Below, one piece after another: positions 3,459 through 7,183 of a stretch of DNA of 47,464 bases. Each line of letters opens with the position of its first letter. Position 1 is the first letter of the stretch. Source of the stretch: Candidatus Gastranaerophilales bacterium (GTDB lineage Bacteria > Cyanobacteriota > Vampirovibrionia > Gastranaerophilales > Gastranaerophilaceae); contig CALUUK010000012.1 of assembly GCA_944323955.1 (NCBI GenBank), positions 1 through 47,464 on the forward strand, read 5' to 3'. The notes under the pieces were generated by a model. That model was not told where the DNA came from. It saw only the letters and a program-made list of their open reading frames with translations, and did not search any database. Both the position numbers and the translations under genes were made by a program.

Positions 3459-3640
3459 AGGCAATTAGCGCAGTTGACTCTGCCGAGGGGAAGGTGACTA
3501 AATGTCACGTTACCCGAGAGGTAGCATCACATTGATAATTGAATATTTTGGGCGGTTAGCGCAGTTGACTCTGCCGAGGGGAAGGTGACTAAATGTCACG
3601 TTACCCGAGAGGTAGCATCACATTGATAATTGAATATTTT
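3459..3640 (+). repeat. Two tandem 91-bp copies of the tRNA-Val 5' half with a D-arm hairpin
   Basis: Two units (3459-3549 and 3550-3640, period 91 bp) lie directly 5' of the intact tRNA-Val. Each starts like the tRNA (GGGCGGTTAGCGCAGTTG in the second, slightly decayed in the first). Each is then interrupted in the D-loop by about 40 bp holding a hairpin, and resumes with GGTAGC-ATCACATTGA before drifting into AT-rich sequence. The anticodon-arm 3' side, T-arm and 3' acceptor strand are missing, so neither unit can fold as a tRNA. In the first unit CTGCC (3480-3484) can pair with GGTAG (3520-3524), enclosing GTGAC-TAAAT-GTCAC (3494-3508). From the D-stem onward the two copies are essentially identical. 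Confidence 0.9.
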
Positions 3641-3716
3641 GGGCGGTTAGCGCAGTTGGTAGCGCATCACATTGACATTGTGGAGGTCGCTGGTTCGAGT
3701 CCAGTACTGCCCACCA
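3641..3716 (+). tRNA. tRNA-Val (anticodon GAC)
   Basis: A full cloverleaf is visible: acceptor stem GGGCGGT/ACTGCCC with one G-U pair, D-stem GCGC/GCGC, anticodon stem TCACA/TGTGG around loop TTGACAT (anticodon GAC), and T-stem GCTGG/CCAGT around TTCGAGT. The 3' CCA is encoded (3714-3716). GAC reads GUU and GUC valine codons. Two imperfect 5'-half copies precede it in tandem, and a glycosyltransferase gene begins 22 bases after its end. Confidence 0.97.
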
Positions 3717-5835: not shown

Positions 5836-5903
5836 AACGCAATTATACAATAAACAATTTAAGTGCTGAGCGTAAGAAAACAGACAAAATTTGCACAAAA
5901 AAC

Positions 5904-5975
5904 TGGGCCCGGTAGGATTCGAACCTACGACCAAGGGATTATGAGTCCCCTGCGCTACCGCTGCGCCACAAGCCC
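5904..5975 (-). tRNA. tRNA with anticodon CAT (elongator Met or Ile2)
   Basis: On the minus strand a cloverleaf is formed by acceptor GGGCTTG/CGGGCCC, D-stem GCGC/GCGC, anticodon stem GGGGA/TCCCT around CTCATAA, and T-stem GTAGG/CCTAC around TTCGAAT, followed by discriminator A. The 3' CCA is not encoded, unlike the Val tRNA. The anticodon stem lacks the three consecutive G-C pairs of initiator tRNA, so this is elongator tRNA-Met or the lysidine-modified tRNA-Ile2; the sequence alone does not separate them. Two tandem imperfect copies of its 5' half precede it. Confidence 0.93.
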
Positions 5976-6177
5976 ATGTTTTCTTAATTTTCAATGTTCC
6001 AGCTTGCGGTAGCTGCGCTACCTACCTCTCGAAAAACGATACTTAATCGTTTTTCTCGGCACAGTGCCACAAGCCCATGTTTTCTTAATTTTCAATGTTC
6101 CAGCTTGCGGTAGCTGCGCTACCTACCTCTCGAAAAACGATACTTAATCGTTTTTCTCGGCACAGTGCCACAAGCCC
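5976..6177 (-). repeat. Two tandem 101-bp copies of the CAT tRNA 5' half with a D-arm hairpin
   Basis: Read on the minus strand, two identical 101-bp units (6177-6077 and 6076-5976) run straight into the intact tRNA at 5975. Each begins with the tRNA's GGGCTTGTGGC. It then carries an insert with a perfect 10-bp hairpin (arms 6031-6040 and 6046-6055 in the nearer copy, five-base loop), continues with GTAGCGCAG, and departs from the tRNA. A second small hairpin, GGTAGC-GCA-GCTACC, follows. T-arm and 3' acceptor strand are missing. The insert borders, TGCCGAG on one side and CGAGAGGTAG on the other, are the same as in the tRNA-Val copies. Confidence 0.92.
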
Positions 6178-6199
6178 ATGCACTAAATAAAGAATAACA

Positions 6200-7183
6200 T
6201 TAACAATTTTTGTCGTCAAGAAAAATTTCACGGTAATCAGCAAGCATGGCAGCACCGACCGCACCTGAAAAATCACCGAGTTGAGCACGTTCAAATACAA
6301 TTTCACGGGAAGGTACCGCAAGGGAATTTTCTTTTGCAAGTTTGACAGTTTTTTCATAGAAATAATCAATGCCGTTTATAAGTCCGCCGCCAAGAATTAT
6401 TTTAGACGGATTATAAAAATTAATTATTGAAGCAATTCCCAATGACAAATAAAAGCAAGTTTCATCAAGCACATCAATAACGGTTTTATCATTATTTTCC
6501 AGTGCCTTTTTCAACATCGCGGTTTTAATAGGCTTATCTTCTTTCATATAATTTATAATGTCAGAATTTACTCCCCTGTTAAGTTCAGCGCGAATTTTTC
6601 TTTCAATAGCAAGCCTTGACGCATAGGCTTCAAGACAACCTTTTGCACCGCAGCCGCAAAGTCTGCCATTGGGCTCAATAATAATATGACCTATTTCACC
6701 GGCACTGCCGGTGGCGCCATACCTGATTTTTCCGTTTTGAACGATACAAGACCCTACACCTGTACCTGCAAAAATACATACAAAATCTGTTTCTCCCTTA
6801 CCGCTTCCAAAAAGAATCTCGCCTATTGTTGCAACTTCAACATCATTCCCCAAATAAACGGGTTTTGAAAATTCTTTTTCCAAAATTTCCTTTATAGGTA
6901 CATTCTGAAGTCCGATATTCGGTGCATTTATAATTATTCCGTTTTGTCTGTCTGTCTGACCTGCAGCACCCATTCCTATATTTTCAATTTCTGATAATTT
7001 TTTATCAGCGGCAATTATAACCTCTTTAACAGATTTTATTATTTTTTTAATAAGTTTATCACTGCCTTTATCTTTTTTTGTCTTTACTTTTACAAAGCTC
7101 AAGACTTCGCCCGTTTTTTTATCCGCGAGTACCGTTAGTATTTTTGTTCCGCCTAAATCTATTCCGATAGAATAACTATTCAT
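6200..7183 (-). CDS. ROK-family sugar kinase, probable glucokinase
   Basis: The 327-residue protein carries the ROK signature. GIDLGGTKI at the N-terminus is the ATP phosphate-binding loop. GTGVGSCIV and GEIGHIIIEPNGRLCGCGAKGCLEAYAS-type segments (about 141-187) contain the catalytic-side residues, the HxxI motif and the Cys residues (CGCGxxGC) that bind zinc in this family. GGGLI near residue 275 belongs to the second half. It most likely phosphorylates glucose or a related hexose to feed glycolysis, matching pyruvate kinase and the secreted GH13 enzyme in this window; the exact sugar is not certain. AAAGGAATC precedes ATG 7183. The C-terminus lies 22 bp from the tRNA repeat block. Confidence 0.9.
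   Translation of the reverse strand: MNSYSIGIDLGGTKILTVLADKKTGEVLSFVKVKTKKDKGSDKLIKKIIKSVKEVIIAADKKLSEIENIGMGAAGQTDRQNGIIINAPNIGLQNVPIKEILEKEFSKPVYLGNDVEVATIGEILFGSGKGETDFVCIFAGTGVGSCIVQNGKIRYGATGSAGEIGHIIIEPNGRLCGCGAKGCLEAYASRLAIERKIRAELNRGVNSDIINYMKEDKPIKTAMLKKALENNDKTVIDVLDETCFYLSLGIASIINFYNPSKIILGGGLINGIDYFYEKTVKLAKENSLAVPSREIVFERAQLGDFSGAVGAAMLADYREIFLDDKNC

Follow-up and report, generated by a model that had tools for sequence, protein, structure and literature searches.

On balance, we regard the two repeated units upstream of the tRNA-Met (CAT) gene as members of a Gastranaerophilales family of mobile hairpins that are very small and non-autonomous and leave their target gene intact. 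The Gastranaerophilales are a non-photosynthetic sister lineage of Cyanobacteria, consisting of uncultured gut bacteria. The window, that is, the whole stretch of DNA analyzed, is contig C12 (47,464 bp) of the source genome (G000; 1.96 Mb in 28 contigs, 99% complete). At the Met locus, the following features were located.

5903..5976, minus strand: intact tRNA-Met with CAT anticodon (ARAGORN; Rfam RF00005, 70.4 bits)
5976..5998, minus strand: spacer, copy 2, directly before G1 of the tRNA at 5975 (sequence)
5999..6021, minus strand: segment X, copy 2 (RNA fold)
6022..6065, minus strand: module M, copy 2 (module pattern)
6066..6076, minus strand: second copy of the tRNA-Met 5′ end (repeat comparison)
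6077..6099, minus strand: AT-rich spacer, copy 1, with a TTGAAAATTAA motif (sequence)
6100..6122, minus strand: segment X, copy 1 (fold of 6100-6177 of the minus strand, z −4.45; inverted matches)
6123..6166, minus strand: module M, copy 1, ACTGTGCCGAG-hairpin-CGAGAGGTAG (module pattern; RNA fold z −4.35)
6167..6177, minus strand: U, first copy of the tRNA-Met 5′ end, GGGCTTGTGGC (sequence)
6191..6219, minus strand: sigma70-like promoter TTGACG-17-TATTCT, upstream of both units (read directly; relatives without a unit have the same promoter directly before the tRNA)

The CAT-anticodon tRNA may be elongator tRNA-Met or lysidine-modified tRNA-Ile2. On the 5′ side of this minus-strand gene, the original prediction had placed two identical 101-bp partial copies with a 10-bp hairpin, which were recovered using ARAGORN and repeat comparison. 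The copies, two as assembled, are in tandem (5965-6065 and 6066-6166), 100% identical and devoid of the tRNA 3′ half. Each unit consists of 11 nt of the tRNA start, a 44-nt module whose hairpin has a perfect 10-bp stem and a further 46 nt, in the order U (GGGCTTGTGGC), M (ACTGTGCCGAGAAAAACGATTAAGTATCGTTTTTCGAGAGGTAG, 44 nt), X (GTAGCGCAGCTACCGCAAGCTGG) and AT-rich spacer. X, which pairs with U, begins with a short forward piece of the tRNA and continues through a loop into the 5′ part of the tRNA in inverted orientation. Folded as RNA, the unit reached z −4.45 with a 9-bp U-X pairing, and this pairing is kept through C-to-T changes in relatives.

A second array in the window (3460-3641) precedes tRNA-Val (GAC) and comprises the following features.

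3460..3476, plus strand: diverged copy of the tRNA-Val 5′ part (repeat comparison)
3477..3524, plus strand: module M, copy 1 (module pattern; fold z −4.0)
3550..3567, plus strand: second copy of the tRNA-Val 5′ part, 18/18 identical to the tRNA (repeat comparison)
3568..3615, plus strand: module M, copy 2 (module pattern)
3641..3716, plus strand: intact tRNA-Val (GAC) (ARAGORN)

The Met and Val arrays had been described as unrelated and as not being one duplication copied twice. The latter holds, with different tRNAs, independent arrangements and different hairpin stems. The former was overturned, since the conserved flanks ACTSTGCCGA...GAGAGGTAG are common to both and place them in the same element family. 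By sequence, the Val and Met hairpins are thus variants of one module family with invariant flanks. The consensus of M is ACTSTGCCGA, followed by a variable hairpin of approximately 25-30 nt and by GAGAGGTAG, 43-50 nt in total. This pattern was matched four times in the window and not once in 100 dinucleotide shuffles, and is therefore not a chance occurrence. In the source genome, eight matches were obtained versus none in the reversed control.

The tRNA loci of the source genome were surveyed one by one, as had been proposed, for copies upstream. Five of the 44 tRNA and tmRNA genes located carry them, with modules directly upstream of tRNAs Met (CAT), Val (GAC), Pro (GGG), Pro (TGG) and Pro (CGG); Thr (GGT) is a sixth, with a degenerate copy. 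The Met and Val genes are accordingly not the only carriers, and copies were also found in many relatives. The Pro (CGG) copy is the one at the C10 contig end, and its module recurs unchanged where C3 starts. The assembly thus appears to be broken by this array, and the two contigs probably join at the tRNA-Pro (CGG) array. Collapse of the assembly was excluded as the sole cause of the repeats because independent assemblies of dozens of species agree, the copies are not all identical and orthologous sites without a unit exist.

In M, CTGCC pairs with GGTAG as an outer helix that contains an invariant G-U pair. This is followed by a purine-rich internal loop (GA/GAGA) and an inner helix of 10-12 bp closed by a 5-nt loop. 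Covariation was assessed on 26 distinct modules of 44 nt. All ten pairs of the inner helix were changed on both sides, and 95.6% of its cells were paired versus 78.7% in shuffles (0/500 shuffles as high). Double changes accounted for 64 cells and G-U pairs for only two. This scarcity of G-U intermediates points to renewal of the entire palindrome at once, by hairpin exchange or DNA copying, rather than to slow RNA covariation. The unit at locus L054 folds into a three-way junction (z −3.3); the folding results exclude L051 and L222. In an Rfam scan of the units, only tRNAs exceeded the gathering score, the few weak overlaps being AT-rich chance matches below the cut-off; a known RNA family or riboswitch was rejected on this basis.

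The target rule was derived from 124 sites with a matched downstream gene (91 sense, 33 antisense), at which the sequence left of M is a copy of the gene end. In sense orientation, M replaces exactly 6 nt of that copy at 70/91 sites, the stretch being GYAGYG-like (GTAGCG 42, GCAGCG 22, GCAGTG 3, GTAGAG 3) and the targets being copies of the 5′ half of Met, Val, Pro, Thr, Ala and Lys tRNAs. In antisense orientation, 7 nt (GGAKTCG) are replaced at 25/33 sites (GGATTCG 15, GGAGTCG 10), in copies of the 3′ end of Leu (CAA), Arg (ACG), Glu (CTC), Met and tmRNA; the stretch lost in the tmRNA copy is GAATCG. The junctions are uniform across many different genes. tRNA-Pro contains two GTAGCG sequences and both are used (L055 and L060 versus L051), so that the decisive factor seems to be the replaced sequence and not where it lies in the tRNA. 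To the right of M, the copy of the gene picks up again for a few nucleotides (D). In most units this is followed by a loop, an inverted copy of D and of the replaced stretch, often also of U, and finally by the spacer and the intact gene.

Read in the direction of M itself, the intact gene comes after M, whether M is sense or antisense. Among 126 sites with a tRNA within 400 bp, 118 have it downstream of M. In the resolvable sense exceptions with an upstream tRNA (Tyr loci), the target is the next tRNA downstream, Thr. Identity of the copied end was judged on the 97 outermost sites (70 sense, 27 antisense); 57 of the sense and 20 of the antisense copies match the gene without any difference. 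The match passes the gene end by at most 5 nt in 49 of the 70 sense sites; as a rule, the copy is homologous up to the mature gene end and no further. Double modules (L043/L268, L269) and decayed copies (L246, L263) also occur. Placement of the copies on the 5′ side, with the 3′ half missing, and a copy number of two, both put forward as common features of the two arrays, thus apply to this window alone: elsewhere, one to four copies are found, and antisense units lie at the 3′ ends of genes. Polarity is set by the orientation of the module rather than by the tRNA 5′ end.

Loci with the same motif are almost all from Candidatus Gastranaerophilales. Module-positive genomes amount to 21/41 in the genus and 79/239 in the family, where they represent 22/41 genera, with no matches in the reversed control. 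A class-wide sample yielded 34/97 positive genomes in the same family, the single genome sampled from another family of the order (1/1), and 0/96 in the other orders of the class. Copy numbers per genome are highest in G136 (50), G045 (24) and G087 (12), and near-identical copies of M lie at unrelated sites within such high-copy genomes. Near-identical hairpins were shared more often between different loci within one genome than between genomes (label permutation, p 0.016), an excess that contig fragments of one locus may have inflated. In genera g10 (G087, G139) and g6 (G136, G045), M is contained, singly or paired, in other repeats scattered over the genome. These host repeats (L100-L106 in G087, L107-L115 in G136) are non-coding, a few hundred bp long, start with TGTCYGAG and carry one or two modules each. 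Comparison of the G136 host repeat with and without M again revealed a 6-nt replacement, GGAGTG or GAAGTG being swapped for M.

Between close relatives, units may be present or absent and vary in number. At the tRNA-Met locus of G001, G005, G015, G024 and G029, no unit is present and the sigma70 promoter is followed by the tRNA after about 12-22 nt. In G011, G012, G013, G018 and the source genome, the same kind of promoter is followed by one or two units and then the tRNA. The flanks of G011 and G001 are 93% and 87% identical, and the upstream flanks of G018 and G015 97%. Precise occupied and empty orthologous sites thus exist, which may reflect either gain or loss. From the order of promoter, unit and tRNA, together with closely related sites without a unit, it follows that the Met units lie within the predicted transcribed leader and that units are gained or lost over short times.

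Other repeats were observed near tRNA genes. A second family of approximately 100 bp (ATACAAAGYGAA...CTGTATSCGG) has three exact matches in the source genome. It lies downstream of tRNA-Asp (GTC) (L026) and tRNA-Gly (GCC) (L024), in each case with a copy of the tRNA 3′ end and its terminator on both sides, and at 1-182 of the window between 50-bp direct repeats. A similar duplication of the 3′ end is found at tRNA-Leu (CAA) (L033). At L255 (G017), upstream of tRNA-Met, a repeat of approximately 64 bp resembling this second family is nested in the loop of M. A boxA-like motif (TTGAAAATTRAATA / TTTGAAAACT) is common in Gastranaerophilales tRNA leaders. It was considered as an element-borne spacer (22/68 spacers) and rejected as such: it is a common leader motif, because it is also present in 25/133 leaders of other tRNAs. 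A 16S gene, sought for comparison of this motif with rRNA leaders, was found in none of five genomes of the genus.

Insertion of the mobile hairpin favored here may proceed by copy-back or template switching at the foldable tRNA end, as the anatomy of the units suggests. U, M and D would be written, the copying would turn, the inverted D, the replaced stretch and U would follow, and the intact gene would be copied once more. The host would keep a working tRNA and therefore tolerate the insertion, and arrays could grow or shrink through recombination between direct repeats. That this amounts to an undescribed insertion by copying, in which a 45-nt hairpin replaces 6-7 nt in the new copy, an inverted copy is added and the intact gene is regenerated, is put forward tentatively and is somewhat doubtful; the module would then perhaps be the smallest gene-sparing mobile element known.

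The enzyme supplying M may act in trans; no mobilizing enzyme was identified among the Y1/RAYT and RVT_1 genes examined. Y1/RAYT genes were found in 13/20 module-rich genomes versus 5/20. Despite this enrichment they were rejected, as they lie beside their own REPs and no Y1 gene is present in the source genome or in six other module-bearing genomes. The RAYT-type Y1 transposases at L274, L280, L286, L291 and L295 are flanked by GTAGGTTGGGC..GCCCAAC REPs. RVT_1 (a group II intron or other retroelement) was discarded, being absent from G136, G227, G045, G155 and G000. In viral contigs, a pattern count gave six matches and no indication that a phage carries the module.

The strongest competing reading is a leader RNA maintained by selection. 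The units would then have a function within tRNA transcripts, as leader or trailer RNAs with a three-way junction and an acceptor-like stem that control tRNA maturation, transcription or RNase P processing; they would have been duplicated locally and retained by selection. This is possible but unlikely. It accounts for units lying between promoter and tRNA, for the folds of the Met unit (z −4.45) and of L054 (z −3.3), for the invariant G-U pair and GA/GAGA internal loop of M, and for a U-X pairing that survives C-to-T changes. The identity of the copied end with the gene in 57/70 sense cases, despite diverged flanks, likewise fits a selected function. It does not readily explain antisense units at gene 3′ ends, dispersed copies of M away from any tRNA, patchiness among close relatives, decayed copies (L246, L263), or a hairpin nearly free of G-U intermediates. 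Against mobility, many tRNA-linked units are common to related species, with the same site and spacer type, so that much of the pattern reflects vertical inheritance. The empty sites could also have arisen by deletion between direct repeats and need not be pre-insertion states. The mobile-hairpin and leader-RNA readings are not exclusive; the hairpin may be tolerated because U-X pairing avoids competition with folding of the tRNA.

Scars of site-specific integration by a tyrosine recombinase, left by small or collapsed elements with the gene end as duplicated att identity block, are improbable. In favor, T-loop-containing ends of tRNA and tmRNA genes are classical attB sites, a restored gene stands beside a duplicate of its end, and 6-7 nt approach the size of a recombinase overlap region. 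Nevertheless, the whole insert measures approximately 80-120 bp without integrase or coding capacity, the same M is combined with very different identity blocks and is present in both arms, and inverted target copies follow it. Plain tandem duplication of a tRNA 5′ end, by slippage at a hairpin, or an assembly artefact would agree with the tandem arrays and with one array that appears to break two contigs. Both are strongly disfavored and have very little probability, given a module signature of 18-20 nt kept across 22 genera with no control matches, unique single units in dozens of independent assemblies, and orthologous sites without a unit.

Taken as a mobile hairpin, the module, its replaced stretch of 6-7 nt, its polarity and the inverted target copy constitute a sequence code by which a non-coding element spreads while sparing an essential gene. 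With about one third of sampled family genomes positive and with occupied and empty sites in close relatives, the movement of very small repeats becomes testable. For annotators, tRNA ends in Gastranaerophilales are flanked by pseudo-copies, possibly co-transcribed with the tRNA.

A literature search retrieved no account of such units in Gastranaerophilales, nor of comparable tRNA-end repeats. Rickettsia palindromic elements, which are also small and rich in hairpins, enter genes and do not destroy them; they lie inside genes, whereas with M the gene is restored beside a partial copy. tRNA-targeted integrative elements with tyrosine recombinases share with M the duplicated tRNA or tmRNA end and the restored gene, but the M insert is approximately 100 bp without integrase gene, carries an inverted target copy and replaces 6-7 nt. 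REP/REPIN elements, moved by RAYT transposases (PMC3116915), are likewise small, non-autonomous and palindromic, and RAYT genes are present in several of the genomes studied here. However, these RAYTs have their own GTAG-type REPs, and M lies beside a RAYT only via one host repeat in G136. M also departs from REPINs in every feature tested (flanking RAYT, Y1 in the genome, inverted doublets), being one oriented hairpin, alone or in direct repeats. Small dispersed repeats (SDRs) of Nostoc punctiforme were reportedly described by Elhai et al. in 2008. These are very small hairpin repeats with compensatory changes, nested in each other and in tandem and other small repeats, and we know of no mobilizer for them. 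M is like SDRs in its tiny, dispersed, near-identical hairpins, compensatory changes, nesting and cyanobacterial lineage at large. It differs in being about twice as long, in belonging to another order and context, and in being tied to tRNA and tmRNA ends, where the end of the gene is duplicated, a constant 6-7 nt are replaced and polarity follows a rule. SDRs are also mentioned in PMC3116915. With near-identical copies dispersed over several contexts, a covarying structure, and occupied and empty sites, M appears, by analogy, to work most like the Nostoc SDRs.
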